Positions 5,159 through 24,719 of a stretch of DNA of 64,000 bases are shown piece after piece. Position 1 is the first letter of the stretch. Every line of letters starts with the position of its first letter. Source of the DNA: a virus; IMG/VR virus record IMGVR_UViG_3300028553_000005, positions 62,001 through 126,000 of that record; one strand, written 5' to 3'. Made by a program: the position numbers and the translations under genes. The notes under the pieces were generated by a model. It did no database searches. It had not been told where the DNA came from and worked only from the letters and a program-made list of their open reading frames with translations.

Positions 5159-6886
5159 TTATGGAGCAATTGAAGTAATGGCAAGAACACCTCGTCCTGC
5201 ACTTATAAAACTCCACGTGGTGCTTGCTCCCACTTGCACAGGACTGGATCGGTTGGTTTGATTATTTTGTCCTAACTGCCCGTTACTATTGTCACCCCAG
5301 GCCCACATTGTGCCATCTGTCTTGGTGGCCAATCTATTCTGACTACCGGTTGAAGATGCACTTATTAAATTCCAATTTGTTCCTGTTCCCACCTGTGTTG
5401 GGCTGGACCTATTACTGATGTTACCGAGTCCTAACTGTCCAACATTATTGCGACCCCAGGTCCACAAAGTACCGTCAGTCTTGGTGGCCATAGAACCATA
5501 CTCTCCACCACTAACCAGACTCCAATTAGTTGATGTACCAATTTGTGTAGGACTGAGTTTTGTATAAGTTGAAATTTCGTTGAGTCCTAAAGAACCGTAG
5601 TTGTCATTTCTGCCCCATGCCCACAAGGTACCGTCAGTCTTAATAGCTAAACACTGAGAGGTGCTAATACTTATTCTATTCCACGTGGTATTTGCACCCA
5701 CCTGTACGGGGCTGGATCTATCAACTGTATCGCCAAGTCCTAATTTGCCCATGTAGCCTTGGCCCCAAGCCCACAATGTGCCATCAGTTTTGATAGCAAT
5801 AGAAGATGCTGAAGAAGTGTCAATACGGTACCAATCTGTTCCTGCTCCTACTTGTACTGGACTGGATCTGGCAACTGTATTACCAAGTCCTAACTGTCCT
5901 TGTGTGTTAACGCCCCAGGACCACAAGGTGCCGTCAGTCTTGGTGGCCATAATACTGTAGTTACCAACACTAACAAGGTTCCATGTTGTTGCTGTTCCTA
6001 CCTGTGTTGGGCTGGATCTGGCGTAAACTGTATCATTATGACCTAACTGGCCATTAGTATTGTATCCCCAAGTCCATAGAGTACCATCGTTTCTGATAGC
6101 TGCAGAATTGGTTGCACGGCTACTTACTGACTTCCAAGTTGTTCCTGTTCCTACTTGTGTTGGACTAAGCGTGTATCCCCCACTTGTATTTAAACCTCCA
6201 ACACCAAATCCATTCATACCCCAAGAATATAATCTTGTCAGCGGTGTTAGTGTCACAGTTACTTGGAATGTTTTGCTTGAATCTTGTAACTCAGCATCTG
6301 TAGCTACAACACTAAATGTGTATGTGGTTTGAGCACCAATAGAAACTGTACCAGAGAAATATCCGTTGGCAGCTAATGTTGTACCGGTTGGTAATGTAGA
6401 GCCGGCTGCTAAAGAATAAGATGTTGCACTAGTAGCACTAAGGTTAACACCAAAGGCTGTATTGGCTTCTTGATTTGCCAATGGACTTGCAGTGATCCAA
6501 GAAGGTTCAGAGCTGTATGTGATACCAGCAACTTTAATACCAACGCCACCATCAGGATTAACCACATAAAGATTATAAGATGCCGCTGATTTTGTAGGAA
6601 CTTGAACTTGTAGTGTTGTTGAATTTACATATGTAACGGCTGAAGCAGGAGTTGTGTCGATTAATATGGTGGCACCAGATTGAAATTCGGCACCAGTAAC
6701 AACAATGTAACCACCACCTACGTTAACCGCTGTATCATTTAATACTGTAAAGGTATTACTGGCCACGTTGGCATAGAGAACTTTAGGTGCTAGTGTTTTG
6801 GCAAAGGCTGCCGTGGCTGTATTACTTAATTGTACTGTGTCAATTGTGTAACTGGTGATCTGGTTTCCAAGAATCTTTGTGGTCAT
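5159..6886 (-). CDS. RCC1-repeat beta-propeller adhesin A
   Basis: The 575-residue protein has an N-terminal anchor, an IPT/TIG-like Ig domain (about 38-125), a second Ig-like domain of the putative-Ig type with LPTGTTLAANGYFSGTV (about 130-213), then seven repeats of about 52 residues (215-575). Each repeat carries the core TDGTLWxWGxN..GQLG followed by RSSPVQVG. Seven units is the canonical blade number of an RCC1 propeller. It probably displays a receptor-binding propeller on a fibre. It is first after a perfect late promoter box and directly follows the glycan cassette, on the 3' side of it. Confidence 0.82.
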   Translation of the reverse strand: MTTKILGNQITSYTIDTVQLSNTATAAFAKTLAPKVLYANVASNTFTVLNDTAVNVGGGYIVVTGAEFQSGATILIDTTPASAVTYVNSTTLQVQVPTKSAASYNLYVVNPDGGVGIKVAGITYSSEPSWITASPLANQEANTAFGVNLSATSATSYSLAAGSTLPTGTTLAANGYFSGTVSIGAQTTYTFSVVATDAELQDSSKTFQVTVTLTPLTRLYSWGMNGFGVGGLNTSGGYTLSPTQVGTGTTWKSVSSRATNSAAIRNDGTLWTWGYNTNGQLGHNDTVYARSSPTQVGTATTWNLVSVGNYSIMATKTDGTLWSWGVNTQGQLGLGNTVARSSPVQVGAGTDWYRIDTSSASSIAIKTDGTLWAWGQGYMGKLGLGDTVDRSSPVQVGANTTWNRISISTSQCLAIKTDGTLWAWGRNDNYGSLGLNEISTYTKLSPTQIGTSTNWSLVSGGEYGSMATKTDGTLWTWGRNNVGQLGLGNISNRSSPTQVGTGTNWNLISASSTGSQNRLATKTDGTMWAWGDNSNGQLGQNNQTNRSSPVQVGASTTWSFISAGRGVLAITSIAP

Positions 6887-6909
6887 TTGAATCTATCCTA
6901 AAATATGGG

Positions 6910-6934
6910 TGATTTATACTATATTTATAAATCA
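6910..6934. repeat. 9-bp perfect inverted repeat spanning the late promoter
   Basis: Arms 6910-6918 and 6926-6934 (TGATTTATA and its complement) are separated by 7 bases. Read on the minus strand, it lies just after the stop of the 6946 gene and could form an AT-rich hairpin; there is no U-run, so a classic terminator is not supported. The right arm overlaps the TATAAATA box. Confidence 0.6.
6922..6929 (-). promoter_or_regulatory. Late promoter box TATAAATA before RCC1 adhesin A
   Basis: A perfect TATAAATA on the minus strand lies 35 bases before the ATG at 6886, with a ribosome site (AGGAT) between. It would restart late transcription downstream of the glycan cassette. Confidence 0.62.
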
Positions 6935-6945
6935 TCCACATTTGG

Positions 6946-7776
6946 TTAGACTCCCATTTGCTTACGAATCTTGGTGGCTGAAATGTCGGTGATTGATTTA
7001 TCAAAGGTTTCTTGTTCGATTTTGTATCCTACATCACGACCATAGGTGATATTGACGATATTAGGTACCACTTGAATCTCGTATTGGCCTTGATAGATTG
7101 GATCCAAATCTCTACGGATATACGATTTAACTTGTTCAATGGCAAACGGATTAGAACCTTGCCATCCTTGGCAATCTCGAATTTGAATGACTACCTGACC
7201 AGTTTTGGCAATGGCTCGGTCAAACAATGCTCGGTGACCTTCATGCCATGGTTGCCAGCGACCCAACATTTGAACTGTTTCTTTCTTCCAGTCAAACACA
7301 GGACGCCTACGATTTTCAATAATGTGATTACCAATAAACTCAGCCCATTTCTCCGCATTTTGTTCTGTAACACGGAAGTCATATACATCTGGTGGTACAA
7401 ACATTTTATTAGTATCTTCATAACGACCAGCTTCAATTGTGTCAACCCAAATTGTCCAATCGGCTTTGAAATTGTTTCTCATCTCTGGAATAGGTGCCAC
7501 GAAATCACAAATAACATAATCACCACCAGCTTCAAATGCAAACTGTGCCATTCTTAATGATTGCCGAATACGTCCTTCTTTAGAGAAATCCCAATCATTG
7601 AATTTTTTACGAACATCATCAGCATTGAACCAAGTTACTTGAGCATTAAATCCTGTGATAGGTAACATTTCACCATAATCGGCTCGTTCACCATGTTTTT
7701 CTAGGTATTTTTTCAATGCTTCAGCCAAAAATGTTTTACCGGCACCAGGTAAACCCATAATTAAAATCTTTTTCAT
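6946..7776 (-). CDS. APS-kinase-like / nucleotidyltransferase fusion enzyme
   Basis: This 276-residue protein has two enzyme domains. Residues 1-150 form a P-loop kinase close to adenylylsulfate kinase (CysC): Walker A GLPGAGKT at 8-15, then NADDVR at 51-56, FSKEGRIRQ at 64-72, and CDFVAPIPEMR at 90-100. Residues 160-276 form an HxGH-type nucleotidyltransferase: GRWQPWHEGH at 172-181 and ISATKIR at 265-271. The second half looks more like cytidylyl/NMN adenylyltransferases than true ATP sulfurylase. It could supply PAPS for the sulfotransferase of the same cassette, or phosphorylate and then nucleotide-activate a sugar or alcohol. It is last in the cassette and overlaps glf by 4 bases. Confidence 0.8.
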   Translation of the reverse strand: MKKILIMGLPGAGKTFLAEALKKYLEKHGERADYGEMLPITGFNAQVTWFNADDVRKKFNDWDFSKEGRIRQSLRMAQFAFEAGGDYVICDFVAPIPEMRNNFKADWTIWVDTIEAGRYEDTNKMFVPPDVYDFRVTEQNAEKWAEFIGNHIIENRRRPVFDWKKETVQMLGRWQPWHEGHRALFDRAIAKTGQVVIQIRDCQGWQGSNPFAIEQVKSYIRRDLDPIYQGQYEIQVVPNIVNITYGRDVGYKIEQETFDKSITDISATKIRKQMGV

Positions 7777-8774
7777 ATTTGTTCCTTAATAAAATTATCA
7801 ACGATTGCCAATGATGAACTGATTGCCATATCCATATCGATATAAACATACAATCCACATCTACCAATAAACTGGACCTTGTCGTTTTTTATGTCCTTAT
7901 ACTTATTATATATTGCTCGATTTAAACCTTCTGAATCTTTTACTGGATAATACCGTTCATAATTATTATCTCGGTAATCACAAGGTTCTTCTAATGTATA
8001 TCTCTCACCAAATCCATGTTCAGGAAACAATTCCCATTTTGTAATGCGTGTATATGGTCCATCATCCGTAAAATTAACTACCGATGTTGGCATATCAAAG
8101 TAAGATTTATCGGTAAAATGAAACTTGATTGACCGATATGGTAATTCACCATGACAGTAATCATAATACTCATCTATTGCCATTGAATTAAAAACAAAAT
8201 CATATTCAGTTTCCATTTCTTTAGAAAACTTGGTGTTTAATTTTATTTTTATATTTGAATGATTTAATATATTTCCAAATAGTTTATTATAACCACCTTT
8301 GGGTAGGCATTGGTATTCATCATTTGGAAAATATAATTCGTTTAAATCATTTCTTAGTTTGATACGATTTAATATACTACTATCAATCTTATCGGTCGGC
8401 AAGCCCCACATCTTTTTAGAATAAGGCACATACAGAGTTTCAAACAATTTATCACCTAATATTTTTTGTGTTTCCAAATTAGGTGGTAAAGTTAGATATT
8501 GGCCTTTGTGATATGCTTTGACTTTATGTTGGTATGGTACCCATTCGGTGTATTGGGACAACCATTCAATTACTCTATTGTTATTTGTGTGTAGGATGTG
8601 CGGTCCGTAGCGGTGTACTAGAACACCATCTATCATCTCATCATAACAGTTGCCACCAATATGGCCTCTTTGGTCAATTATGGTAATATTGTAACCACGA
8701 TTGGCCAGTTCTCTGGTTATAACTGAACCTGAGAATCCTGTTCCAACGACCAGTATGTTTTGTTTTCTTCCCAT
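7773..8774 (-). CDS. glf: UDP-galactopyranose mutase
   Basis: The 333-residue enzyme converts UDP-galactopyranose to UDP-galactofuranose using reduced FAD. Seen are the dinucleotide-binding VGTGFSGSVITRELANRG (residues 10-27), the DQRGHIGGNCYD motif (35-46), YGPHILHTNN, the PYSKKMWGLP segment, and a late RCGLYVYIDMDMAI segment that binds FAD. It is slightly shorter than usual (360-390) but no core motif is missing. It starts within the upstream glycosyltransferase gene (58-bp overlap) and overlaps the next gene by 4 bases. A phage-encoded mutase implies that galactofuranose is used by the neighbouring transferases, which is inference. Confidence 0.93.
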   Translation of the reverse strand: MGRKQNILVVGTGFSGSVITRELANRGYNITIIDQRGHIGGNCYDEMIDGVLVHRYGPHILHTNNNRVIEWLSQYTEWVPYQHKVKAYHKGQYLTLPPNLETQKILGDKLFETLYVPYSKKMWGLPTDKIDSSILNRIKLRNDLNELYFPNDEYQCLPKGGYNKLFGNILNHSNIKIKLNTKFSKEMETEYDFVFNSMAIDEYYDYCHGELPYRSIKFHFTDKSYFDMPTSVVNFTDDGPYTRITKWELFPEHGFGERYTLEEPCDYRDNNYERYYPVKDSEGLNRAIYNKYKDIKNDKVQFIGRCGLYVYIDMDMAISSSLAIVDNFIKEQI

Positions 8775-9550
8775 AATTTAATTACGGCATCTTTCGTTAT
8801 ATAAAACGGTATGTCCATTTTGTTTGACATATGTACCACTAGTGAACCCATTGGCATAAACATTTTAAATTCTGGTTTATTCCACACCGTGGATATCGTG
8901 TTACCTTCCCAATGATGTTCTTTTTCACCAATAATTAATAACTTATCAAAGTGTTCTTTATACTTTTTAAATATCTTGGCTTGAATCATAAATGATTCTT
9001 GTGTAAACCATGTGCTTCTATAATATCTATGCTGTGTAGGAACAACAAAACATGGCCTATAATATGTTTCATTATATGGATGACTTGGATGATAATATAG
9101 TTGATTGAAATCTTGTGGAAAAATACCTATTTCTAAACCAGTAACCGATGAAAGATATGTCCACGATTCAATCATTTCACCAATGGCACCTGAAAAATGT
9201 AGATAGTCATCTTCTACAATGTACACCAAATCATCATCAGGTAAATTGTAGATGTATTCGTAGGCTACTTGAACTGAGTGCCTAGATTTTTTCTTAGGTG
9301 ATAATCCTTCTTGATTTCTTGGTGGTAAAAAATTGATTGTGACGAAATCGTGTGGTTGAATCAGTTCTTTAAGTATGTCCTGAAATTCAGCAACAGAGTT
9401 ATCATCAATAATGTGTAATGATTTTTCTGGTATATTTTTGAGATTGGTGATAATTGAATTTAAACACCGAAGAATACATTCAGATTTATTTACTATTCTA
9501 TCGGACTGTAGAGAAGTTCTATTACAAGTCCTTAATACAACATGAATCAT
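8717..9550 (-). CDS. Glycosyltransferase, GT-A type (GT2-like)
   Basis: This 277-residue protein begins MIHVVLRTCNRTSL, the first strand of a GT-A fold, followed by an IIDDNS motif near residue 48 and the metal-binding YIVEDDYLHFSGA around residues 109-122. The later part has aromatic-rich segments and a HHWEGNTIST block. The acceptor is unknown. It overlaps the methyltransferase by 4 bases upstream and glf by 58 bases downstream, so it sits in one tightly coupled operon. A role in building a galactofuranose-containing glycan is plausible from context only. Confidence 0.72.
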   Translation of the reverse strand: MIHVVLRTCNRTSLQSDRIVNKSECILRCLNSIITNLKNIPEKSLHIIDDNSVAEFQDILKELIQPHDFVTINFLPPRNQEGLSPKKKSRHSVQVAYEYIYNLPDDDLVYIVEDDYLHFSGAIGEMIESWTYLSSVTGLEIGIFPQDFNQLYYHPSHPYNETYYRPCFVVPTQHRYYRSTWFTQESFMIQAKIFKKYKEHFDKLLIIGEKEHHWEGNTISTVWNKPEFKMFMPMGSLVVHMSNKMDIPFYITKDAVIKLWEENKTYWSLEQDSQVQL

Positions 9551-10128
9551 AATTTACGAACAGCAGATTGATAACCACTAGGTAACTCAAAAATTTCTAA
9601 TTTATCCCAATAACATTGCATGAAATTATCTACTGCCATTTTAGGCGAGTTGCATGGGTTGTTATCTTTTCTCCACACCATACTGTCATCAAATAACATT
9701 ACACCACCTTTATTCAACAATTCAAATCCTAAAACACAATCTTGTAATACACCTGGTGCTCGGTGATCTCCATCAACATAGATAAAATCGGCTTTGACAC
9801 CACGATTATATAAGTCAATCAATCCATCAAAAGATTTTTTATTAATAAACTCCACCACACCTTTAGGTTCAAATTCTTCTAAGTTACTTAAAAACATTTC
9901 TTTGGTCTGTGGTATATTTTTTTCAGGCAAGTCATCACTATTGTCGTATGGATCAATTGCGTAATGTTTATAATTTGAATTTTGTTGATGACAAATACCA
10001 GTTATGTTAAATGTGCTGTCACCTTCAAAACATCCTATTTCAATTGATACTTTTGGAAAGCCAATTGAACTTACAATGTGTTGAAAACTTCTAATTGTGT
10101 GGTCGTGGAATCTTACGGTTAATTTCAT
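9547..10128 (-). CDS. Class I SAM-dependent methyltransferase
   Basis: This 193-residue protein shows SAM-binding motif I at VSIEIGCFEGDST (27-39), an acidic second motif at HYAIDPYD, ADFIYVDGDH with the DGDH typical of the Methyltransf_24 type (about 115-123), and GGVMLFDDS. The length suits a single-domain enzyme. Members of this family often modify sugars or glycan ends. It overlaps its neighbours on both sides by 4 bases (ATGA), within the glycan cassette, so a glycan O-methylation role is likely but not proven. Confidence 0.78.
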   Translation of the reverse strand: MKLTVRFHDHTIRSFQHIVSSIGFPKVSIEIGCFEGDSTFNITGICHQQNSNYKHYAIDPYDNSDDLPEKNIPQTKEMFLSNLEEFEPKGVVEFINKKSFDGLIDLYNRGVKADFIYVDGDHRAPGVLQDCVLGFELLNKGGVMLFDDSMVWRKDNNPCNSPKMAVDNFMQCYWDKLEIFELPSGYQSAVRKL

Positions 10129-10841: not shown

Positions 10842-10858
10842 AACAAACTTTCAAAAAA

Positions 10859-11281
10859 TTACATTAGTGCGTCAACATCCTCATGTGTAGCGGCTGCATT
10901 AACTTGAATAACACGAGCATCTCTAGTTGACTTGGCGGCTTCAATTTCAGCTTCAAGTGTGGAGATTTGGTCAGCAAACTCTGGTATATTACGCTTCATT
11001 TGCAATTGGTTTTCTAAACGAATTACTTCAAAATTGGCTTGACCAATTAAAGAACCTTTACGCTCATCAACTGACAACTCACGCTTACCCCAAACAATCT
11101 CAATTGGATTTTTGGTAATATCAAATGTATGTGTTGTAAGAATTTCACGGTTAGGTGTGAGGTCTGGAGTAATCTCTACGGCTGCACTCCAACCGGATTG
11201 ACCTTCTGGTGCTGGTGTATCCCAGCAATCTGTTACCTTACCATTCTGAACTCGAACATTATAACCTGATCTTGTTGGCAT
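10859..11281 (-). CDS. Small conserved phage protein of unknown function
   Basis: The 140-residue product is not recognised as an enzyme. Residues 1-55 are beta-like with VRVQNGKVTDCWDTPAPEGQSGW, and residues 85-130 are charged and Ala/Glu-rich, probably a coiled coil. The layout (short beta head with a helical tail) recalls small fibre-associated or fibre-assembly proteins of phages, but no specific family can be shown. It has a good ribosome site (AGGAGATAG) and lies between the sulfotransferase fusion and the GT25 gene. Confidence 0.6.
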   Translation of the reverse strand: MPTRSGYNVRVQNGKVTDCWDTPAPEGQSGWSAAVEITPDLTPNREILTTHTFDITKNPIEIVWGKRELSVDERKGSLIGQANFEVIRLENQLQMKRNIPEFADQISTLEAEIEAAKSTRDARVIQVNAAATHEDVDALM

Positions 11282-11293
11282 TACTATCTCCTA

Positions 11294-13054
11294 TTACTTT
11301 TTAAAATTTTGTAAATCGACTTTGATCTGATCAAATGGAGCAGACCATTCTCCAAATACTTCTTGGCGATACAGCTTCACCGAATCATACCAGACTGTTG
11401 TGTTTCCTGGTGGAGCCCACAAATAGTAAGGCAATTTAGGTACTACAATCCATGTTGGTATTCCCATGGCACCACAGAGATGTGCAACAGAGGTACATGA
11501 TGTGATAATTAAATCACATGATGCAGCCGCTATTCGTGTTTCTTCCCAATGACCTAGTGGTACTTCTTTTACCCAATATGGTTTGTATTGAGAACCCTCA
11601 TCTCGTTGCAGTGATATAAATTCTGCATCAACATCTTCTAAGGCATCAAATAGTTTTGTTGGTGGGAATATCCGATGTTGTTCATGTTCGAACTGTGGAT
11701 TACCTTGCCACCGTAGACCGATTCTCAAACCTTTATGTGGTTCTACTAATGGTTTATTTATGTATGGTTTTCCTGATATGTCCTTGTATTCGTAACCAAG
11801 AATGGGTATCGTGGACATGGATGGTGCCCAATAATCATGTACAATACCATATACAGCATCACTCTGGCAGACCGCCACGACTCCTTCTATATCACGGAAT
11901 AGTGTCGCCAACGAACCGGAACACGCCACAATCACTTCTCCAGCAATCTTTGCAATATCCCTTGCGTAACGAACTCCGTGTATCTGGTCACCTAATCCAC
12001 CTTCTAGATTTAATAATACGGTACCTTTTGATTTGCCGTCCCACATTGGCATTGGTGATTTTGGTGGTTCATTACCAAACACTCCTTCGTCACGACCACG
12101 GAACAATAGTTTTTCACCTTCTAAAAGTTTACCATGTTGCATGAGATACCAACCACGATTAAAAGCGGCACGATTATTCCATGGTTCTTCTTTCTCTAAT
12201 TTCTGTGCTATCTTCCAACCTTCTTCAAAGTTACCCATTAGACCAGCAGCCAACTGTAAATCAAGGTCGTGAATAGGTTTATTGGCAACTTTTTCTCCTA
12301 ACCAAAATCTTGGTTGTACGAATTCATAATAACGATGCTTCAATACATCTTTAGAATCTTCTTTGTGTTGATAACCTAATTTTGGTTTAACATCATGAAG
12401 GCCTTTTACTTCCCAAATTTCTTCATCTTTTTCTTGTAGATTGGTACCATCAATGGCATTTAAATCATATTCAAAATCTGGTAATTCTAAAAACTCATGA
12501 ACTCGTTTTAATTCTTTTTGTGGATCATTCATCAGATCATCATAGTCAATAATTAAAAAACATTCAGGTGCAAATGAATATCCTTTTTCAAATGTTTGAT
12601 ATGATTCTTTGAGGTGTTTAATCAGGTCATCTTTGAGTAAAAAATGATCCAAATTTTTTGGTTTAGCCACACGAACAAAAGAAGCGGCACAATCTTCTAC
12701 ATTACGAACTGTGGCAATAATTTTAGGTTTATGTCCAAGAACTTTAGACATGGTACGCATGTTCGTATCATCAGCCCAACCTCTAGCTTTATCAAGAATG
12801 ATGGGTTTATCAATGTCATGATATTGAGTTTTACAGATGTTATTTAAAACATGCTGAATCTTTTCTTCTTCCTTTTTCTGATCCGTTTGAGCTCTAGTGG
12901 TCAAACTATCAGCCCATGCTCTTAGAGTACCTACTAGGGTATCTAAAAGATTAGAAGTGGATGTGGCATGAATGCTTGGATTTTGGCTAAGAATAGCAGC
13001 CAATACTGTTGAACCAGAACGTGGAAGTCCTGAAAGAAAATATATGTTTTTCAC
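11294..13054 (-). CDS. Sulfotransferase fused to TPR and GT-B glycosyltransferase
   Basis: The 586-residue protein starts at GTG. Residues 1-230 form a sulfotransferase: PAPS 5'-phosphosulfate loop GLPRSGST at 9-16, 3'-phosphate motif VRNVEDCAASF with Arg117 and Ser125, and the LIIDYDDLMNDP segment. Residues 265-320 are TPR-like helices (NNRAAFNRGWYLMQHGK). Residues 340-586 resemble GT9/heptosyltransferase or SPINDLY-type GT-B enzymes: LLNLEGGLGDQIHGVRYA, GLRIGLRWQGN, SLQRDEG, and CDLIITSCTSVAHLCGAMGIPTW. It probably both adds sugar and sulfate to a polymer or protein. It is the first gene of the cassette, behind a sigma70-like promoter. Confidence 0.82.
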   Translation of the reverse strand: MKNIYFLSGLPRSGSTVLAAILSQNPSIHATSTSNLLDTLVGTLRAWADSLTTRAQTDQKKEEEKIQHVLNNICKTQYHDIDKPIILDKARGWADDTNMRTMSKVLGHKPKIIATVRNVEDCAASFVRVAKPKNLDHFLLKDDLIKHLKESYQTFEKGYSFAPECFLIIDYDDLMNDPQKELKRVHEFLELPDFEYDLNAIDGTNLQEKDEEIWEVKGLHDVKPKLGYQHKEDSKDVLKHRYYEFVQPRFWLGEKVANKPIHDLDLQLAAGLMGNFEEGWKIAQKLEKEEPWNNRAAFNRGWYLMQHGKLLEGEKLLFRGRDEGVFGNEPPKSPMPMWDGKSKGTVLLNLEGGLGDQIHGVRYARDIAKIAGEVIVACSGSLATLFRDIEGVVAVCQSDAVYGIVHDYWAPSMSTIPILGYEYKDISGKPYINKPLVEPHKGLRIGLRWQGNPQFEHEQHRIFPPTKLFDALEDVDAEFISLQRDEGSQYKPYWVKEVPLGHWEETRIAAASCDLIITSCTSVAHLCGAMGIPTWIVVPKLPYYLWAPPGNTTVWYDSVKLYRQEVFGEWSAPFDQIKVDLQNFKK

Positions 13055-13148: not shown

Positions 13149-14957
13149 CTATGATAATTTGGCAAACCCGGCGTAAGGCCCCATACTAACTAAAGTCCAA
13201 TTTGTTGCTGATCCTACTTGTATTGGACTGGATCGGGTAACTTTATCATTTCTTCCTAATTGGCCATAATTATTTTGTCCCCAAGACCACAATGTGCCAT
13301 CTGTTTTGGTGGCCGTAAAACTATACGCACCTCCACTAATTAAACTCCAATTTGTTTCTGTTCCTACTTGTGTTGGACTGGATCTATAAACACCTCGATT
13401 ATTGTGTCCTAATTGGCCAAAATCATTTTTTCCCCATGTCCATAAAGTACCATCAGTTTTAGTAGCTGCTTGTATAGGACCGGGTGCACCGATAACAAAA
13501 TTATTTAAACTCCAATTGGTATTTGCTCCAATTTGTACTGGACTCGACCTACGAACTGTATCATTTCTTCCTAATTGGCCATTGTTATTATATCCCCAAC
13601 TCCATAGTGTGCCATTAGTTTTGGTGGCTATAGTATAATTATCTCCGAGTTTTGCTTGACTCCAAGTTGTATCTGATCCTACTTGTATTGGACTGGATCG
13701 GGTAACTCTATCATTTCTTCCTAATTGGCCTTCTTCGTTAATTCCCCACATCCATAAAGTACCATCAGTTTTGGTGGCCGATACAACTCCCACTCGACCA
13801 ACACCTATTTTACTCCAAGTAGTTCCTGATACTTGAACTGGACTAGATCGGTTAACTCTATCATTGCGGCCATGTTGACCAGAATCATTTTGTCCCCATG
13901 TCCATAAAGTACCATCGGTTTTGATAGCTGCAAAGAAATAGGGGCTGATACTTATCAATGACCAATTGGTATTTGTTCCAATTTGTACAGGACTGGATCT
14001 ATTGACTCGATCATTATGTCCTAATTGACCATTACTATTATTTCCCCATGACCATAGGGTACCATCAGTTTTGGTGGCCAACACAGAATACCTTGCCGTA
14101 CTTATTTGATTCCAATTTGTATCTGTTCCTACTTGTGTTGGACTGGATTTAGAAGAAGAACCAATATTTAATCCATCTTCTCCATTCCCAGAATGAAAAC
14201 CCCACACATATAATCCTGGCGCTGGACCTATCGTTACCGTCAAACTAAATGTACGACTTGCATCTTGATTTTCAACGTCAGTTGCTTTCACATCGAATGT
14301 GTAAGTTGTTTGTGTACCAATTGTTACAATACCAGAAAATAATCCGTTAGCGGCCAATGTAGTACCAGCAGGTAGCGATGTGGTGTTTGCATAAGTTATT
14401 GATGAATCGGAGTTTGCGCTCAGATTAACAGAAAAAGATGTATTGGCATTTTGGTTACTTAATGTTGCACCGGTGCTCCATGCTGGGAATGAACTTGTTG
14501 TCAATCCATTAATTCGAATACCTGTACCTCCATTACTGTTAACGACATATACAGGATATGAAGCCGCTGTGAGTGCTGGAACTTGTGCTCTGAGTGTTGT
14601 TGAATTTACAAAAGATACCGCAGGAGCCGCAGTTGATCCAAATACCACAGTTGAACTATTGGTAAATCCTGATCCAGTAATAACAACATATCCACCAGTA
14701 GTATTGGCTGCCGTATCATCTAAAATATTATAAGATGAATCTGCAATTTGAATTGTAGTAATTAGTGGAGATGCTGAGTTTGCCAGTATGGCTGCATTGG
14801 TATTTGCAGTTGCAAAAGCAGCAGCTGCCACAGCAGTAGCAATAGTTGCAAGAGTGTTTGCATTAGTTGCAGTAGCTAAACCACTTGCAACAGATGAATC
14901 AAGTTTATCTGAAGTAATTGATGATGCGAGGATATTGTTTGCTGTTATTTTTGCCAT
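13149..14957 (-). CDS. RCC1-repeat beta-propeller adhesin B
   Basis: The 602-residue protein has an Ala/Asn-rich N-terminal stalk (1-64), an IPT/TIG-like domain (65-155), a putative-Ig domain with LPAGTTLAANGLFSGIV (157-242), and seven RCC1 repeats (about 247-602). The Ig pair is nearly identical in wording to that of adhesin C at 16520. Repeat 1 starts at LYVWG and the last ends at the C-terminus, which would close the propeller. Two repeats share a 58-bp DNA stretch with a single mismatch. It is last of a run of three RCC1 genes and is followed by the glycan cassette. Confidence 0.82.
   Translation of the reverse strand: MAKITANNILASSITSDKLDSSVASGLATATNANTLATIATAVAAAAFATANTNAAILANSASPLITTIQIADSSYNILDDTAANTTGGYVVITGSGFTNSSTVVFGSTAAPAVSFVNSTTLRAQVPALTAASYPVYVVNSNGGTGIRINGLTTSSFPAWSTGATLSNQNANTSFSVNLSANSDSSITYANTTSLPAGTTLAANGLFSGIVTIGTQTTYTFDVKATDVENQDASRTFSLTVTIGPAPGLYVWGFHSGNGEDGLNIGSSSKSSPTQVGTDTNWNQISTARYSVLATKTDGTLWSWGNNSNGQLGHNDRVNRSSPVQIGTNTNWSLISISPYFFAAIKTDGTLWTWGQNDSGQHGRNDRVNRSSPVQVSGTTWSKIGVGRVGVVSATKTDGTLWMWGINEEGQLGRNDRVTRSSPIQVGSDTTWSQAKLGDNYTIATKTNGTLWSWGYNNNGQLGRNDTVRRSSPVQIGANTNWSLNNFVIGAPGPIQAATKTDGTLWTWGKNDFGQLGHNNRGVYRSSPTQVGTETNWSLISGGAYSFTATKTDGTLWSWGQNNYGQLGRNDKVTRSSPIQVGSATNWTLVSMGPYAGFAKLS
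13208..13265. repeat. 58-bp intragenic repeat, copy 1 (RCC1 blade)
   Basis: It matches 13673-13730 with one mismatch (13243 against 13708). Both copies encode the VTRSSPIQVGS type part of an RCC1 blade. Confidence 0.85.
13673..13730. repeat. 58-bp intragenic repeat, copy 2 (RCC1 blade)
   Basis: Partner of 13208-13265, 465 bp away in the same orientation and reading frame. Recombination between the copies would remove whole blades in frame. Confidence 0.85.
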
Positions 14958-14962: not shown

Positions 14963-16513
14963 TTATGCATTTCTTTTTGCGATTGATGAGTAGTGTCCAG
15001 CATATACTTCACTCCAATCTGTTGCTGTTCCAATTTGAACAGGACTGGATCTGTTATTTATATCGTTTTGTCCTAATTGACCATTACCGTTATTTCCCCA
15101 AGACCATAGTGTGCCGTTAGATTTTAATGCCGTTACTCCATGATAATCACACACGGCATTTAACCAAGTTGTTTCTACTCCAACTTGAACTGGACTGGAT
15201 CTCTGAATTGAATCATTTAAACCTAATGATCCATATTCGGTATTATTCCATCCCCAAGTCCATAGTGTGCCATCAGTTTTAATACCTACAGAATTTCTTG
15301 ATGTTGAAATTGTATTCCAAGTACCTGTACCTATTTGTACCGGACTGGACCTATTAATTTTGTTATTTAATCCAAGTTCGCCTAAAGAATTTGATCCCCA
15401 TACCCATAGTGTACCATCTGTTTTAATAGCTGCAGGATAGGCCGTATCACAAGGACTTTCGGAGAATTTTAACCAATTTGTTAACGCACCAATTTGGACC
15501 GGAGAGGACCTATCAATTGTCGAATTGTTGCCAATTGCATATCCTGGACCCCAAGCCCATGCCGTGCCATCGGTTTTAATAGCATAAAGATTGTATGCTG
15601 CAGTTTTAATTTGAGCCCAATTTGTCATTGTGCCAACTTGAGTTGGACTGGACCTATCGGTTATACTATTTAATCCTAAAGCGCCATAATTACCATAACC
15701 CCATGTCCACAATGTACCATCAGTTTTAATGCCTGCAGAAAAATAATAACCAATGCTTATGGAAGACCAATTTCCTGTACCAATTTGAGTTGGACTGGAC
15801 CTATTAATTATATCATTTAATCCTAAGTTACCACGAAAATTTCGACCCATCGCCCACAAAGTTTTTGTTGGTGATTTTCCTTTTAAAAGTAATGTATGTG
15901 CAGCTCCACTAGTAGCGTTTGACCACAAATAAGCTTCACCAATTTGAACAGGACTGGACCTAGCAATTGCATCATTTGTGCCTAATTGTCCAAAAAAATT
16001 TTCTCCCCATCCCCATAGATTAGACAATTGACTACCAGGAAAATCACTTGTTATTAAACCTCTTGGTCGAATTGCAGTACCGCCACTACTATTCACCACA
16101 TATACAGGATAAGTTCCTGATGAGATGGCTGGAATCTGTGCTCTAAGTGTGGATGAATTCACCAATGTGGTTGTTAATGCGGTGTTACTGGATCCAACCA
16201 CAACAATTGCGCCGGATTGAAAATTGGAACCTGTAATTTGTAAGTATGCACCGGTGGTATTGGCTTCGGCAATATTTAGAACATTATAAGATGAATCTGT
16301 AACTGATACTACATTAATTGTTGGAGGCAAAGCGGCAAGCTCTTGAGTTTGTAATGTAACAAATGTATTAACTGCTTGTGCGGCCACATTGGCAGCAATT
16401 GCCAAATCATTAGCAATACCTGCGGCATTAAATGTGTTTGCTACACCAGAATCAAATACAAAAGACTTGATTGAGTTGTTTGCAATATTAATCGCACGGA
16501 CATATTGAGTCAT
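14963..16513 (-). CDS. RCC1-repeat beta-propeller adhesin D (one Ig domain)
   Basis: The 516-residue protein has an N-terminal anchor (1-58), one IPT/TIG-like domain (about 60-155, with LNIAEANTTGAYLQITGSNF), and then seven RCC1 repeats (about 162-516). It lacks the second Ig domain found in its neighbours. The second blade is degenerate (TLWAMG, preceded by LLLKGKSPTK instead of the usual IKTDG), and the fourth has AWAWG. It lies 5 bases from the RCC1 gene downstream and 6 bases from the one upstream, as part of a three-gene tandem array that arose by duplication. Confidence 0.82.
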   Translation of the reverse strand: MTQYVRAINIANNSIKSFVFDSGVANTFNAAGIANDLAIAANVAAQAVNTFVTLQTQELAALPPTINVVSVTDSSYNVLNIAEANTTGAYLQITGSNFQSGAIVVVGSSNTALTTTLVNSSTLRAQIPAISSGTYPVYVVNSSGGTAIRPRGLITSDFPGSQLSNLWGWGENFFGQLGTNDAIARSSPVQIGEAYLWSNATSGAAHTLLLKGKSPTKTLWAMGRNFRGNLGLNDIINRSSPTQIGTGNWSSISIGYYFSAGIKTDGTLWTWGYGNYGALGLNSITDRSSPTQVGTMTNWAQIKTAAYNLYAIKTDGTAWAWGPGYAIGNNSTIDRSSPVQIGALTNWLKFSESPCDTAYPAAIKTDGTLWVWGSNSLGELGLNNKINRSSPVQIGTGTWNTISTSRNSVGIKTDGTLWTWGWNNTEYGSLGLNDSIQRSSPVQVGVETTWLNAVCDYHGVTALKSNGTLWSWGNNGNGQLGQNDINNRSSPVQIGTATDWSEVYAGHYSSIAKRNA

Positions 16514-16519: not shown

Positions 16520-18244
16520 TTAATTTGAGGTAATAGCTATTGTGTGAGAATGTCCACCTACAATTTTACTCCAATTTGTATTTGTTCCTATTTGAACTGG
16601 ACTACTTGATGATATACCTGAATTTAATCCTCGTTTTCCATTACTACCATCTCCCCATGACCAAAGAGTGCCATCAGTTTTAATTGCTATAGCATGTGTT
16701 TGGCCGGTGCTTATTTCACTCCAATTTGTATTTGTTCCTACTTGAACCGGACTGGATCTATAAATTGTATTGTTAATTCCTAATTGACCATAAGCATTCA
16801 TTCCCCATGCCCATAAAGTGCCATCAGTTTTAATTGCAAAACTATGGTTCTGAGCTGCAGCCACTTTACTCCAAGTTGTTCCTGCAACTTGACTTAGATT
16901 AGAAACGTTGGACACGTTATTACGTCCTAGCTGGCCCGTATCATTATTTCCCCATGCGTAAAGAGTATTATCTGTTGATCTAACAGCTAAACAATGAGCA
17001 CCACCAAGAGCTATCGAACTCCATACTGATCCATCTATTAACTGTGGAGTTGTTTGTGTGGTTGTATTAAAGTTTCCTATTTGTCCAGAACCATTATGGC
17101 CCCATGACCAAAGTGTGCCATCAGTTTTTGTGGCCAAACCATTTTTTTCTGAAGCTAATATTAGATTCCATGTAGTACCTGAACCAACTTGAACAGGACT
17201 GGATTTATAACTACCACTACCAATGCCATCACCTAACCGGCCGTCATTGGTAACTCCCCAAGACCACAAGGTGCCATCAGTTTTTGTAGCTAAAGAATGA
17301 AGCGGTCCTACTGCTACTCTGTTCCAATTTGTTCCTGTTCCTACTTGAATTGGACTGGATCTATTAACTGTATTATTTTGTCCTAATTGGCCATAACTAT
17401 TACGACCCCATGACCAAAGTGTGCCATCCGTTTTTGTTGCTAAAGTATGTGTGCTGTCAAAATAATGATTGGCCGCTCCTATATTATTCCATGTAGTACC
17501 TGAACCAACTTGAACAGGACTGGAATAACTTGTTTCACTATTTTGACCTAATTTTCCATAACTACCAGAACCCCATAACCATAATTTTGTTTGTGGTATT
17601 ACTGTGACAGTTAAGCTAAATGTTCTAGAAACATCCTGATTTTCAGCATCGGTGGCTTTCACATCAAATGAATATGTGGTCTGAGCACCAATAGAAACTG
17701 TACCAGAAAAATATCCGTTAGCAGCTAATGTTGTACCAGCTGGTAATGCTGTAGTATTGGAATAAGTTATTGATGAATCGGAGTTTGCACTTAAACTAAC
17801 TGAGAAGGCTACATTTGATGATTGATTACTTAACGATGATCCAGTTGACCATGCTGGAAATGAACTGTATGTTATACCATTTACTTTAATTGCTGTTGCA
17901 CCAGTGACACTATCAACCACATATAAAGGATATGATGCTGCAGCCAAGCCAGGAACTTGAGCTCGTAACTGTTTTGTATTTGCAAATGTGGTACTAGTAG
18001 CATTAGTCGTACCAACAATAACAACAGACTGATTCGTAAAACCCGTTCCGTTAATTACCAAATAACCACCACCTGTATTAGCTGCTGTATCATCTATAAC
18101 ATTATAAGATGAATCGGCAATTTGCACACTACTAATGGCCAAAGAAACAATGTTTGCAACGGCTGCATTGGCTGCTTCGGCTGCCGCTAACTTTGTAGTA
18201 ATTGTATTATCTAAATTTGATGTTGTTATTTGTGTAAACGCCAT
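16520..18244 (-). CDS. RCC1-repeat beta-propeller adhesin C
   Basis: The 574-residue protein has an IPT/TIG-like domain (about 38-130), a putative-Ig domain with LPAGTTLAANGYFSGTV (132-215), and seven RCC1 repeats (about 220-574). The fifth blade departs most from the consensus (RSTDNTLYAWGNN, VSNLSQVAG). A ribosome site (AAGGAT) precedes the ATG. It is the first of the three tandem RCC1 genes and follows the stalk gene at 18254 by 9 bases, which suggests that the stalk protein may carry or link these propellers. Confidence 0.82.
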   Translation of the reverse strand: MAFTQITTSNLDNTITTKLAAAEAANAAVANIVSLAISSVQIADSSYNVIDDTAANTGGGYLVINGTGFTNQSVVIVGTTNATSTTFANTKQLRAQVPGLAAASYPLYVVDSVTGATAIKVNGITYSSFPAWSTGSSLSNQSSNVAFSVSLSANSDSSITYSNTTALPAGTTLAANGYFSGTVSIGAQTTYSFDVKATDAENQDVSRTFSLTVTVIPQTKLWLWGSGSYGKLGQNSETSYSSPVQVGSGTTWNNIGAANHYFDSTHTLATKTDGTLWSWGRNSYGQLGQNNTVNRSSPIQVGTGTNWNRVAVGPLHSLATKTDGTLWSWGVTNDGRLGDGIGSGSYKSSPVQVGSGTTWNLILASEKNGLATKTDGTLWSWGHNGSGQIGNFNTTTQTTPQLIDGSVWSSIALGGAHCLAVRSTDNTLYAWGNNDTGQLGRNNVSNVSNLSQVAGTTWSKVAAAQNHSFAIKTDGTLWAWGMNAYGQLGINNTIYRSSPVQVGTNTNWSEISTGQTHAIAIKTDGTLWSWGDGSNGKRGLNSGISSSSPVQIGTNTNWSKIVGGHSHTIAITSN

Positions 18245-19361: not shown

Positions 19362-21230
19362 TTAAGCTATTGCCCAATTTTGTAGCACTCTTATACCAGC
19401 ATAACTAGGCGGAGTACCACTAATTATTTCTGTAAAATTCAAATTATCATTACTTGCACTAACTGTTATATTACTTACATATCGGGTAGAATCATCTGAA
19501 CTACCTATTCGTAAAAATTTTACATCAGTACCTACATATTTTTCAGATCCCATATCGTAATCAACTACAAATGGCAGAGGATTCATATTAGTATCGTCCA
19601 GCGCTGTAGCATTTTGATTATTCAGATTTGTTAATGATCCAGCACTAGGAGCTACAGGAGAAGATAATGTTTGTGTGATATAATTTCCAGCACTATCTCT
19701 AAATGATAATTCTGTTAATTGAGCTTGCGAGCCGCCACCATTTACTGAATTTAATGTTACTCTAAAATATCTATATGATTGCAAAAACGTAATTGCTCCA
19801 GAAGAAGTAAATTTATAATATCTGTATCCACCAGAAGTTGTTACTGTTGGTGATCCAGTTGTTGAAGTTGCAAGTGCAAATGAATCAGGATACCTGAATA
19901 TACAAACACCAGATCCACCGGCAAACATTCTACCACCACCGCCTCCTCCAGTATTTGTTGAACCAGCACTAGTGCCTCCTGTGCCACCACCACCGGTGCC
20001 ACCAAGACCGTTAACGGCTCCATAGCTGTTAGATCCTGTACCTCCACCACCAGCATAATAAGTTCCATCTAACCATTGTTTTCCAGCACCGCCAGCACCT
20101 CCGCTAGTTCCAGAAACACCTACTGCTCCAGCTCCACCACCACCACCTCCAGTATATGGAGCTCCGGTTTGGTTTGCGCCTCCAGCATTTCCATATCCAG
20201 TTCCGCCATTATTACTTGTTTGTATGGAATTTCCTACATTTGTTACGCCGCTGTGTATTCCTCCGCCACCACCTGAACCTCCATCTTGGCCATTATAAGA
20301 ATAAGGTTGTGATGATCCTGCACCGCCACCCATACCTCCACCATAAGTGAGTCGTGTTATAGAAGAATTAGCTAAAGTCGAATTGTCACCTCTTTGTGAA
20401 CCTGAAGCACCACCAGCACCTATCGTAACAGTATAAGCCAATCCACTTCCTGTTATTGTTCCTTCTAACCAACCGCCAGCGCCACCACCGGCACCATCAA
20501 CTGTACCACCAGTTCCAGAACCTCCGCCTGCACCACCACCTGCTATTAACAAATAGTCAATCGATGTCGGCACAGGTAAAAAAGCACTGACAGTTAAATT
20601 AAATGTTCTGGTAGAATCTTGATTTTCAACATCTGTAGCTTTAACACCAAATGAATAAGTATTAGCTGATGTTATGGTACCATAATAATATCCATTGGAC
20701 AATAAATTAAAGCCTGTTGGTAGTATTGTGGTATTCGAGTATGTAACTGATGAATCTGATGTTGCGGATAATGTATTAGAAAATGCAATATTAGATGTTA
20801 CATTAGCTAAAGTTGTTGATGTTAACCATTGTGGCATGGTTGAAATAACAAATGAACTAGAGTATAAAGCACCTGATGAATTTGAATTGTAAACCGATAC
20901 TGCATAGTTTCCTGTGTTTGAAACAGGTAATTGAGCTCTCAATTCTGATGAATTTACAAATGTAACATTGGCTGTTGGTATCATCGTACCATTAAGAAAC
21001 ACATTCGCTGTTGAAGTGAAATTACTACCAAGAATACGAATATATGAATTGCTGATTGCAGCAGCCGTATCATCTAAAGTATTATAACCACTATCAGTTA
21101 CAACAATAGATGAAATAGAAGGACCTGTAGACGCACCAGAATTTACCAATCTGACAGATGTTGTAACAATCTGACTATTCTTGGCTGTTTCTTGTCCTAT
21201 CTGAGATTGGCTTGCTGTTGTAATTGCCAT
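19362..21230 (-). CDS. Glycine-rich adhesin with Ig stalk and discoidin-like C-terminus
   Basis: The 622-residue protein has an IPT/TIG-like domain (38-130) and an Ig domain (132-215) closely related to those of the RCC1 adhesins, then DYLLIAGGGAGGGSG opening a glycine-rich domain (223-450), and a C-terminal domain (about 470-610) beginning YRYFRVTLNSVN with LTELSFRDSAG, FVVDYDMGSEKYV, and ITVSASNDNLNF. The last part resembles F5/8-type (discoidin) carbohydrate-binding domains. The same stalk carries a different head than in the RCC1 proteins. The start overlaps the stop of the 21230 gene by one base. Confidence 0.72.
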   Translation of the reverse strand: MAITTASQSQIGQETAKNSQIVTTSVRLVNSGASTGPSISSIVVTDSGYNTLDDTAAAISNSYIRILGSNFTSTANVFLNGTMIPTANVTFVNSSELRAQLPVSNTGNYAVSVYNSNSSGALYSSSFVISTMPQWLTSTTLANVTSNIAFSNTLSATSDSSVTYSNTTILPTGFNLLSNGYYYGTITSANTYSFGVKATDVENQDSTRTFNLTVSAFLPVPTSIDYLLIAGGGAGGGSGTGGTVDGAGGGAGGWLEGTITGSGLAYTVTIGAGGASGSQRGDNSTLANSSITRLTYGGGMGGGAGSSQPYSYNGQDGGSGGGGGIHSGVTNVGNSIQTSNNGGTGYGNAGGANQTGAPYTGGGGGGAGAVGVSGTSGGAGGAGKQWLDGTYYAGGGGTGSNSYGAVNGLGGTGGGGTGGTSAGSTNTGGGGGGRMFAGGSGVCIFRYPDSFALATSTTGSPTVTTSGGYRYYKFTSSGAITFLQSYRYFRVTLNSVNGGGSQAQLTELSFRDSAGNYITQTLSSPVAPSAGSLTNLNNQNATALDDTNMNPLPFVVDYDMGSEKYVGTDVKFLRIGSSDDSTRYVSNITVSASNDNLNFTEIISGTPPSYAGIRVLQNWAIA

Positions 21231-21559: not shown

Positions 21560-21569
21560 TTTATTTCCT

Positions 21570-22907: not shown

Positions 22908-22929
22908 GTAATATTCCTAGGTTATCTTA

Positions 22930-22937
22930 TATTTATT
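22930..22937 (-). promoter_or_regulatory. Possible late promoter box AATAAATA
   Basis: 7 of 8 match to TATAAATA on the minus strand, 22 bases before the ATG at 22907, overlapping the stop codon of the upstream gene. Spacing equals that of the gene 13 promoter. Confidence 0.4.
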
Positions 22938-23295
22938 CTGTTGGTGGAACAAATTCTACCCAAGATGTTGTATCTTCATCCCAAACAAACATTTTACCTT
23001 CTTCTACAGGCATTGGTGTTGGTGCATCCCACAGACAAGTATCTTCATTCAATACCCATGAATTGAATGGCTTTGGCGGAATAAATGCATCACGACCAGC
23101 ATCGTATGCGTAACCAATACCAGCAAAGTTCTTTCTTAATGGAGTTCCACCATTAGCGTGAACACCACCGTGTGTGTTGTATGATGTTTGCACCCAAGAT
23201 GCTGGGTCACCCCAATGTCCGGTGTTTAAAACATCTTGCTCAATAACAATAACTTGCGTTACTGTTCCATCTTCTACTTTTGCAAAATGACTCAT
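22933..23295 (-). CDS. Conserved small phage protein (MSHFAKV family), fibre-associated
   Basis: The 120-residue protein begins MSHFAKVEDGTVTQVIVIEQD, has WVQTSYNTHGGVHANGG, LRKNFAGIGYAYDAGRDAFIPPKPF, and a C-terminal WDEDTTSWVEF. This set of segments is widespread in marine T4-like phages, usually near fibre genes, with unknown function. It lies between an RCC1 adhesin and a stalk gene with a strong ribosome site (AAGGAGAAG). A role as a fibre tip or assembly factor is conceivable. Confidence 0.75.
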   Translation of the reverse strand: MSHFAKVEDGTVTQVIVIEQDVLNTGHWGDPASWVQTSYNTHGGVHANGGTPLRKNFAGIGYAYDAGRDAFIPPKPFNSWVLNEDTCLWDAPTPMPVEEGKMFVWDEDTTSWVEFVPPTE

Positions 23296-23315
23296 TTTTT
23301 ACTTCTCCTTTTTAT

Positions 23316-24719
23316 TTAACCTAATATAGCCAGGCCAGCATATAGAGTGGATGTGGCTCGCAACCAAGTTGTTCCTGTTCCGACTTGAACGGGACTTGAT
23401 CTACTAGTGGTTGAACCCAATCCTAACGGACTGGTGCCGCCACCTGCATTGCCCAATCCCCAAGACCATAATGTACCATTTGTTTTAGTTGCTAGTGTAA
23501 ATTCATTATTTTTACCACAAAAAACTTCACGCCAAGTTGTATCGGTTCCTATCTGAACAGGACTGGAATAATTATTTGTGTTATTTGTACCTAATTGGCC
23601 TCGATTATTATTTCCCCATGCCCATAGTGTTCCATCGGTTTTGATTGCTAGAGCTCTATCACCACTCATAGAAACGTTTGACCAATTTGTTCCTGTTCCG
23701 ACTTGTGTTGGACTGGACCTATGAGATGTAGTGTTATGACCAAGAGATAGTCCTGGAGCTCCCCAAGTCCACAATGTTCCATCAGTTTTAATTGCTGCAC
23801 TATTTCGAGTTCCAGCGGAAACTTTTGACCAATTTGTTGATGATCCATTTTGCACAGGACTATCTGTTATTACATATGGGCTAGATTCATTTAATCCTAA
23901 AGCACCAGTATTACTTGGATTTCCATTTGTACCCCAAACCCACAAGGTACCATCGTTTTTAACTGCTAATGTGTGAGTATATCCACCGACAACCTCTGCC
24001 CAAGTTGTTAATGATCCTACTTGTGTTGGTACATAGGTAAAATAACCAGGTCCTCCATATCCTATACCTGATTGTCTATATGAATTATCACCCCAAGCCC
24101 ATAATGTGCCGTTGTCTTTGATTGCAAATGAAGTATTGTATCCGGCTGAAACTTTATTCCAATTCGTAGCGCTTCCAATTTGTATAGGACTACCTACTGA
24201 AGTTATACTATTGTTACCCAATTGTCCGTTACCGTTAAATCCCCAAGCCCACAAAGTATAATCAGATTTTTTTGATATAGTATGATTGTGACCAGCAGAA
24301 ATATTCATCCAAGTTGTTAGAGATCCAACTTGAACTGGACTTAAAACACCCCCACCTCCGGTACCTAAAACTCCGTATGTGTTATTACCCCATGTATACA
24401 AATAACCATAGTCTGGTGTTTGAGAGGTATCAGTAATTACAATTGGGCTTGCGGTATTTACTACTGGTGTACCATCTAATGAGCCAGTAAGAATTTGAAT
24501 ACCTAAAGTTTTAGTTCCATCTGTAGCATCATCCGCTGAAATTGTTACATTCCATACAGCACGATTATTTGTAACTGTAATAGAACCCGTATTACCGCCA
24601 ACAATATCCGAATTGGTGGTGTTACCCGTGGTCTTCCAATACAATGTGGTACCATCGGCTGTGTTGGTTGTAGTTACTGTAAATTGTACCGTAGTGTTCG
24701 AGGTTTCATTTAATGGCAT
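23316..24719 (-). CDS. RCC1-repeat beta-propeller adhesin E (different N-domain)
   Basis: The 467-residue protein opens with one beta domain of about 100 residues (TVQFTVTTTNTADGTTLYW, GGNTGSITVTNNRAVWNV, DDATDGTKTLGIQI), which resembles Calx-beta-like repeats and not the IPT/Ig pair of the other four RCC1 proteins. Seven RCC1 repeats follow (about 105-467), starting at YLYTWG and ending in LAILG. It is separated from the other RCC1 genes by fibre genes. Four upstream genes (26158 to 24729) lead into it without gaps. Confidence 0.82.
   Translation of the reverse strand: MPLNETSNTTVQFTVTTTNTADGTTLYWKTTGNTTNSDIVGGNTGSITVTNNRAVWNVTISADDATDGTKTLGIQILTGSLDGTPVVNTASPIVITDTSQTPDYGYLYTWGNNTYGVLGTGGGGVLSPVQVGSLTTWMNISAGHNHTISKKSDYTLWAWGFNGNGQLGNNSITSVGSPIQIGSATNWNKVSAGYNTSFAIKDNGTLWAWGDNSYRQSGIGYGGPGYFTYVPTQVGSLTTWAEVVGGYTHTLAVKNDGTLWVWGTNGNPSNTGALGLNESSPYVITDSPVQNGSSTNWSKVSAGTRNSAAIKTDGTLWTWGAPGLSLGHNTTSHRSSPTQVGTGTNWSNVSMSGDRALAIKTDGTLWAWGNNNRGQLGTNNTNNYSSPVQIGTDTTWREVFCGKNNEFTLATKTNGTLWSWGLGNAGGGTSPLGLGSTTSRSSPVQVGTGTTWLRATSTLYAGLAILG

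Follow-up and report, generated by a model that had tools for sequence, protein, structure and literature searches.

The closest described systems to the locus considered here are large phages whose virions contain proteins with RCC1 repeats. Virions of W70 include three RCC1 proteins, represented by 233, 196, and 141 spectra in the proteome data given for that phage (PMC11370258), and phAPEC6 encodes eleven RCC1-like proteins, of which six are taken to be the "DNA condensation" proteins given in its virion table (PMC7247149). In the case of GAP32, GAP_001 is reported as a virion protein (PMC5259590). The locus described here lies in a 64,000-nucleotide stretch of viral DNA (the window, positions 62,001 to 126,000 of the 136,428-base IMG/VR record IMGVR_UViG_3300028553_000005), where an initial annotation recognized five genes ending in RCC1 repeats and proposed that they form an adhesin arsenal. 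We consider it very probable that the five proteins are subunits of tail or baseplate fibers with exchangeable RCC1 receptor-binding tips.

Five genes with seven RCC1 repeats

The five genes, designated A to E, and a sister fiber gene are as follows.

Gene A: 5159..6886, minus strand, 575 amino acids; TIG and He_PIG stem at about 6240-6886, seven-bladed RCC1 propeller at about 5162-6286.
Gene B: 13149..14957, minus strand, 602 amino acids; alanine-rich N-terminal stem, TIG, and He_PIG, seven-bladed propeller at about 13152-14267.
Gene C: 14963..16513, minus strand, 516 amino acids; N-terminal stem and TIG without He_PIG, seven-bladed propeller at about 14966-16069.
Gene D: 16520..18244, minus strand, 574 amino acids; TIG-like and He_PIG stem, seven-bladed propeller at about 16523-17638.
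Gene E: 23316..24719, minus strand, 467 amino acids; a different N-terminal domain, seven-bladed propeller at about 23319-24455.
Sister fiber: 19362..21230, minus strand; TIG/He_PIG-like stem, 41% identical to D, with a glycine-rich tip (PF21722) and no propeller.

All five open reading frames (ORFs) are intact, lie on the minus strand, and end in exactly seven cores of the LWxWG type, and the framework quoted in the initial annotation (TDGTLWxWG, GQLG, and RSSPVQVG) is correct. Its count of exactly seven RCC1 repeats per gene is confirmed by the cores. Independently, two Pfam families match, with PF25390 (RCC1-like domain, RLD) scoring 196-260 bits in all five proteins against a cut-off of 150, and PF00415 matching all five at E values of 1.4e-45 or better. 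A custom profile made from the 35 blades, which those blades match by construction, likewise gives seven domains per protein, and each protein has the seven repeats of about 50 amino acids that define the RCC1/RLD propellers. At E values up to 0.001, PF00415 finds 30 repeats in the whole record, every one inside the five genes. It matches nothing in 14 control genomes, and a chance origin of the seven-repeat pattern is excluded. Seven repeats are a requirement of the RCC1 fold, and of the 132 complete, unique RCC1 ORFs that phages contribute to the fetched loci, 118 have 7 repeats and 7 have 14, 21, or 42. The remaining 7 have 20 (four ORFs), 17, 6, and 2 repeats, three of them holding unassigned gaps of 38 or 68 amino acids that possibly mask a blade. 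Single ORFs with 42, 21, and 14 blades are found in loci L054, L067, and L040, respectively, as if propellers had been chained. The relatives used throughout are mostly metagenome contigs, and slices of one IMG/VR contig that represents the window virus itself or a near-identical one (L009/L022/L105/L146/L182, of which the 21.3-kb slice L009 is 100% identical) were left out of the counts of RCC1 repeats, stems, and enzyme adjacency.

Predicted fold and one-sided loop variation

The structure prediction that the initial annotation had called for gave a confident outcome for D. An AlphaFold2 model of the full-length protein, built with an alignment of 106 sequences led by D, has a mean predicted local distance difference test (pLDDT) score of 90.5 and comprises one helix, two β domains, and a propeller of 28 strands, an architecture in which a TIG/He_PIG stem carries a seven-bladed RCC1/RLD propeller; the single-sequence prediction for gene B was of low confidence (pLDDT 31.9). 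The seven-bladed fold is thus predicted for D by the model and for A, B, C, and E by sequence. A Foldseek search with the D model finds HERC2 (7q40_A; template modeling score, TM-score, by target 0.88; root-mean-square deviation 2.0), as well as UVR8 and RCC1 (1a12), and among viral proteins it finds phage RCC1 proteins, the tail fiber proteins of Littlefix and PollyC, and the DNA condensation protein of GAP32.

The initial annotation had also described a constant framework with variable loops between the blades, and comparison of the loops among relatives bears this out and places the variation on one propeller face. With the strands of the D model lettered A to D (labels of our own) and entropy taken from the 106-row alignment, the B-C and D-A loops have a mean of 2.42 bits (14 loops), whereas the A-B and C-D loops have a mean of 0.88 (13 loops). 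The two classes do not overlap (Mann-Whitney P=1.1e-5, a guide only, as the loops are not independent and the alignment rows are related). Because the antiparallel meander alternates loop classes between the faces, the B-C and D-A loops share one of them.

Shared stems and exchanged tips

Pfam detects TIG in A, B, and C and He_PIG in A, B, and D, and alignment shows homology of the D stem with the A and B stems across both domains; the copy of gene C in L010 bears an additional He_PIG-like segment. Among the fetched loci, which came from searches with RCC1 sequences, stems, and other queries and include the best 80 of 108 from the stem scan, a stem profile identified 82 stem ORFs. After clustering at 90%, in which 7 truncated or near-duplicate sequences were removed, 75 remained: 40 with an RCC1 tip, 33 with another tip of at least 100 amino acids, and 2 without a tip. 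Laminin_G_3 matches 17 of the 33 non-RCC1 tips and Gly_rich_2 matches 11. For example, a stem of the D type (80% identical) bears a glycine-rich tip in L016, and one of the A type (76% identical) bears three Laminin_G_3 stretches in L023. Genes A-D thus have the conserved N-terminal mount and variable, exchangeable C-terminal tip expected of fibers, and the mosaic fibers suggested in the initial annotation are found, with one stem common to RCC1, Laminin_G, and glycine-rich tips, and with stems kept while tips diverged or were replaced. In one protein of L015 (5013-6854), a glycine-rich domain comes after the RCC1 propeller.

In the case of gene A, nine relatives (L136, L137, L140, L142, L143, L144, L145, L147, and L148; six after 90% clustering, which dropped L137, L143, and L147) have the same order as the window, an APS (adenosine 5'-phosphosulfate)-kinase-like gene and then a stem with 6 or 7 detected RCC1 blades. 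Across these nine, A-stem identity is 72-88% and propeller identity is 46-51%. The change is abrupt in L140, L147, and L143, whose nucleotide identity to the window (93, 94, and 88%) ends at 6252, 6252, and 6243, coinciding with the stem/propeller border of gene A; their stems are 86-88% identical to A and their propellers 47-48%. Gene A of L010 is a 76-amino acid stem stub, identical to A over its first 69 residues except for one change, and in L162 the stem and propeller are split between different frames. The initial annotation held that its interpretation would fail if only one of the five proteins were present in virions and the others were decaying in relatives. The outcome is mixed: gene A is truncated in L010 and split in L162, but the nine relatives retain intact RCC1-tipped versions, and the virion data given for other phages show more than one RCC1 paralogue in the same virions (PMC11370258, PMC7247149). 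An earlier designation of L010 as the nearest relative is withdrawn, since L140, L147, L158, L162, and L165 are 93-96% identical over parts of 6252-13004.

L010 contains positional orthologues of B, C, and D, with 86, 80, and 74% nucleotide identity to the window in three main blocks. Amino acid identity is 74, 85, and 87% in the stem parts of B and 51% in its propeller, 72 and 66% in the stem parts of C and 51% in its propeller, and 89, 96, and 84% in the stem parts of D and 76% in its propeller. The nonsynonymous rate (dN) is highest in the propeller for each of the three, and the propeller ratio of dN to the synonymous rate (dS), taken from the tabulated values, is 0.31-0.37. When blades 2-7 were compared in all 720 orders, the in-register order was the best of the 720 for D and its orthologue (P=0.0014), whereas B (P=0.44) and C (P=0.94) showed no in-register memory of blade order, so that the B and C tips appear from their sequences to have been replaced, scrambled, or diverged past register on a retained stem. 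Ordered blade descent among the five paralogues themselves was rejected: none of the ten pairs gives an in-register signal (P 0.06-0.76), and the paralogues' order of origin is therefore unreadable.

These features suggest how the proteins may work. In A-D, the N-terminal part (a short N-terminal stem, TIG, and, except in C, He_PIG) would be the conserved mount and the C-terminal propeller the receptor-binding tip; the propeller core would serve as a constant scaffold, while the variable B-C and D-A loops would make contact with the host surface, where a glycan is the probable target. Propeller, Laminin_G lectin, and glycine-rich tip are swapped as modules on the stem, and tips diverge fast, so that the lineage would keep changing its tip set. 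The scaffold for receptor recognition envisaged in the initial annotation is thereby supported by the stem and tip architecture, the tip exchange, and the face-restricted loop variation. The several simultaneous receptors and the sequential switching that it also suggested are conjectural. RVT_1 (PF00078) has no match in the 136-kb record, which is possibly incomplete and in which invertases and other switches were not searched, and a diversity-generating retroelement is rejected on that ground.

The proteins could instead be nonspecific surface decorations, sticky or spacer proteins on the tail or head that recognize no specific receptor. Many similar paralogues within one genome would suit such a role, as would the hairy appendages of unassigned composition described for the RCC1-rich phAPEC6 (PMC7247149), but decorations would not account for variation restricted to one face, for exchange with lectin tips, or for fast tip divergence with propeller dN/dS below 1, and we consider this explanation improbable.

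Position among tail genes and the DNA condensation alternative

The window virus is a T4-like phage and the fiber cluster is of the T4 type, with the following genes at its borders and within it.

241..2989, minus strand: tail sheath stabilizer, head closure protein Hc2, and adaptor Ad2 genes, at one border of the cluster.
43317..51682, minus strand: baseplate wedge genes (43317-44684, 46773-49601, and 49601-51682), at the opposite border.
7773-10841: UDP (uridine diphosphate)-galactopyranose mutase, glycosyltransferase family 2 (GT2), methyltransferase, and GT25-like genes, within the fiber cluster.

The five RCC1 genes sit between the baseplate wedge genes and the neck genes, and so belong to the tail/baseplate gene module, as fiber genes would. 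The best-listed isolates for one of the baseplate wedge proteins are Synechococcus cyanophages, at about 30% identity. Between the baseplate and fiber genes, 36957-43307 encodes a 2116-amino acid protein that matches phrog_358 and phrog_877. At 31910-34286, a 2-oxoglutarate-Fe(II) oxygenase gene (PF13640, 4.2e-15) adjoins a collagen-like glycine/proline-rich gene (PF01391, below cut-off), and the oxygenase could possibly hydroxylate prolines of the collagen-like fiber.

Several points weigh against assigning the RCC1 proteins to fiber tips. Their presence in the virion of this phage, their binding to receptors, and the recognition of different receptors by different tips are things that we infer. 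The N terminus of gene E is not common to the A-D stem, and variation confined to the loops of a single face may be an ordinary property of RCC1 propellers. The relatives being metagenome contigs, the loss of gene A in L010 and its split in L162 may be assembly faults; the dS values behind the dN/dS ratios reach 1.5, near saturation in places; and the tally of 40 RCC1 tips among 75 stem ORFs is not a frequency, because the loci were selected via RCC1, stem, and other queries. Finally, the authors of the phAPEC6 and W70 proteomes, where they comment on these proteins, propose or repeat a role in DNA organization (PMC7247149, PMC11370258).

According to this last proposal, the RCC1 proteins would condense or organize phage DNA in the head, a role to which the name taken from eukaryotes and the annotation of several phage proteins point. 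It fits with the PHROGs category of the families concerned (DNA, RNA and nucleotide metabolism) and with the binding of eukaryotic RCC1 to nucleosomes in solved structures. The genes of the window, however, are in a fiber-gene neighborhood, their stem is common to lectin and glycine-rich tips, and their propellers are not markedly basic (lysine plus arginine 6.0%, aspartate plus glutamate 4.8%). In addition, the RCC1 repeats of Pseudomonas phage PollyC are C-terminal to an N-terminal domain resembling that of the T7 tail fiber (23.1 bits, cut-off 25.2), and those of Ppr_SeaP3 follow a similar domain at about 23 bits, just under the same Pfam cut-off of 25.2. We regard DNA condensation by the window proteins as very improbable, and the Ran exchange and chromatin roles of RCC1 itself would not be anticipated in a phage. 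If they are indeed adhesins, virion RCC1 proteins suggested to be DNA organizers in at least two phages would have to be re-read as widespread receptor-binding tips, and a constant scaffold with a one-sided hypervariable surface would be useful for host prediction.

An enzyme beside the RCC1 genes

Two further genes of the cluster bear on the possible modification of the tips.

11294..13054, minus strand: enzyme with a sulfotransferase half (PF13469/PF00685) fused to a TPR/glycosyltransferase-like half, 94 bp downstream of B.
6946..7776, minus strand: P-loop kinase resembling APS kinase with a nucleotidyltransferase-like half, just upstream of A.

The sulfotransferase half scores 70.4 bits with PF13469 against a cut-off of 27, as a Sulfotransfer domain should, and matches solved chains that include protein-tyrosine sulfotransferases at E values of about 2e-7. 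A GLPRSGST loop, which we take to be the donor-binding loop for PAPS (3'-phosphoadenosine 5'-phosphosulfate), is nearly invariant in 22 enzyme sequences. For the C-terminal half, five of 17 members give a match to PF01075 (GT9), with E values no better than 0.022, and several match TPR families weakly.

The association of this enzyme with RCC1 genes was counted in two sets of loci, which overlap in several contigs. In the first, made up of loci collected with queries for RCC1 genes and for stems and of a few phage records selected by name, an RCC1 gene is directly upstream of 51 of the 62 ORFs with either enzyme half, compared with 91 of 1041 other ORFs of at least 150 amino acids. Looking from the other side, of 150 unique RCC1 ORFs that have 900 bp or more of downstream sequence, 48 precede the enzyme or a single half of it, 45 precede another RCC1 gene, and 57 have another ORF, or no ORF, of at least 150 amino acids next. 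When the enzyme was the only query, the best 80 of 505 relatives were kept, which left 79 loci once the window's own virus was dropped, with 66 unique two-halved ORFs on the matched strand, 3 of them too near a contig end and 63 countable. RCC1 is adjacent to 62 of these 63 (56 directly upstream and 6 directly downstream; 1 has none), while in the same 79 loci it is upstream of 87 of 430 other ORFs, and adjacency persists after clustering (38/39 at 90% and 12/13 at 70%). In bacterial or archaeal genome contigs (nine, of which 8 are from metagenome-assembled genomes), RCC1 is adjacent in 7 of 9 enzyme matches, the others being L262 and the partial L268. In L013, L017, and S-SRM01 (L101), the two halves are separate genes, each following its own RCC1 gene. 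In the literature searched, no link of phage RCC1 proteins with sulfotransferases was found, the sole paper there that mentions both being on another subject.

One tentative reading, which we think rather doubtful, is a dedicated tailoring system in which the phage would decorate its own RCC1 tips, changing their charge and specificity without a change of sequence. The TPR half would bind the serine/threonine-rich propeller and add a sugar, the sulfotransferase half would add sulfate, and the kinase/nucleotidyltransferase gene beside A would supply the donor. This would give a fiber with post-translational, chemically tuned host recognition. Against it, 102 of the 150 RCC1 genes have no enzyme directly downstream, and the sulfotransferases carried by cyanophages S-SKS1 and S-SCSM1 are in phages absent from the 25 records matched by a window RCC1 protein. 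Serine/threonine content was discarded as a sign of modification, as 48 enzyme-adjacent propellers (23.7%) and 102 others (23.0%) do not clearly differ.

The gene at 6946-7776 could possibly have a role in sulfate-donor supply, its assignment as an APS kinase being weak (32.4 bits with Pfam, cut-off 21.1; 22.7 with NCBIfam, cut-off 138.7), and the fusion has a mean column identity of 72% in 14 sequences. Of the stem loci, 14 of the 28 that have RCC1 tips contain this gene, as does 1 of the 23 that lack them (P=0.0004), the corresponding values for the sulfotransferase/TPR-glycosyltransferase enzyme being 9 of 28 and 2 of 23 (P=0.08, not significant). The idea that it is an RCC1-specific partner was rejected. 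A scan with this gene gave 596 loci, and of the best 80, 25 contain RCC1 and 41 a sulfotransferase-like ORF, while in 35 RCC1 and both enzyme halves are all missing.

Alternatively, the enzyme would act on the host surface, perhaps as a block to superinfection, and would be linked with RCC1 only through transfer of a shared host-interaction cassette, an explanation of real weight though short of probable. The other sugar-modifying genes of the cluster (UDP-galactopyranose mutase, GT2, GT25, and methyltransferase) are what such a cassette might contain, and S-SKS1 and S-SCSM1, which have sulfotransferases, are not matched by the window RCC1 protein. However, the adjacency in 62 of 63 countable ORFs and the separated halves that each follow a different RCC1 gene make the coupling tighter than cassette sharing needs. 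Because nearly every copy of the enzyme has RCC1 as a neighbor, whether phages sulfate or glycosylate their own fibers becomes a testable question.

Comparison with known systems

The initial annotation's hint of rarity, by which RCC1 propellers are mostly known from eukaryotic regulators and some bacterial surface proteins, fails for phages. At least 581 relatives were found (best 80 kept), some contigs hold more than five such genes, and one of 8 contigs searched whole holds 83 repeats; five RCC1 genes are therefore unexceptional, as such genes are common among phages. Asteriusvirus and GAP32-type jumbo phages (phAPEC6, 121Q, UB, and GAP32) and Septuagintavirus W70 resemble the window in having RCC1 proteins, as several paralogues except in GAP32, which has one, and phAPEC6, GAP32, and W70 have them in virions as reported by mass spectrometry (PMC7247149, PMC5259590, PMC11370258). 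The W70 proteins belong to phrog_4219, which P0001 and P0005 of the window also match. The jumbo-phage and W70 proteins differ in being mostly about 40 kDa and named for DNA or chromosome condensation, whereas those of the window are fused to a fiber stem in a T4-type cluster. In Escherichia phage UB (L104, 12210-26418), a tandem RCC1-like cluster includes short ORFs annotated as DNA condensation proteins; 9 of ten cluster proteins match PF25390, below its curated cut-off, and none of the ten matches TIG or He_PIG.

The tail fiber of PollyC, a T7-like podovirus, has another stem, and one RCC1 place was found in its record. The tail fibers of Pelagibacter phages have a related TIG/He_PIG-like stem region: residues 69-258 (approximately) of the gene B protein (P0002) are 31-38% identical to Pelagibacter phage proteins, many annotated as tail fiber, in which the matched stretch has no RCC1 tip. 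The sulfotransferase half of the enzyme is like TPST1/2 and other sulfotransferases, from which the phage enzyme differs by its fusion to a TPR/GT9-like half. Finally, the eukaryotic RCC1/RLD propellers (UVR8, HERC2, RPGR, and RCC1) have the same seven-bladed fold, with profile E values down to 7.3e-76 and TM-scores by target up to 0.88, but they are signaling, ubiquitin-ligase, or chromatin proteins, whereas those of the window are very probably phage fibers.

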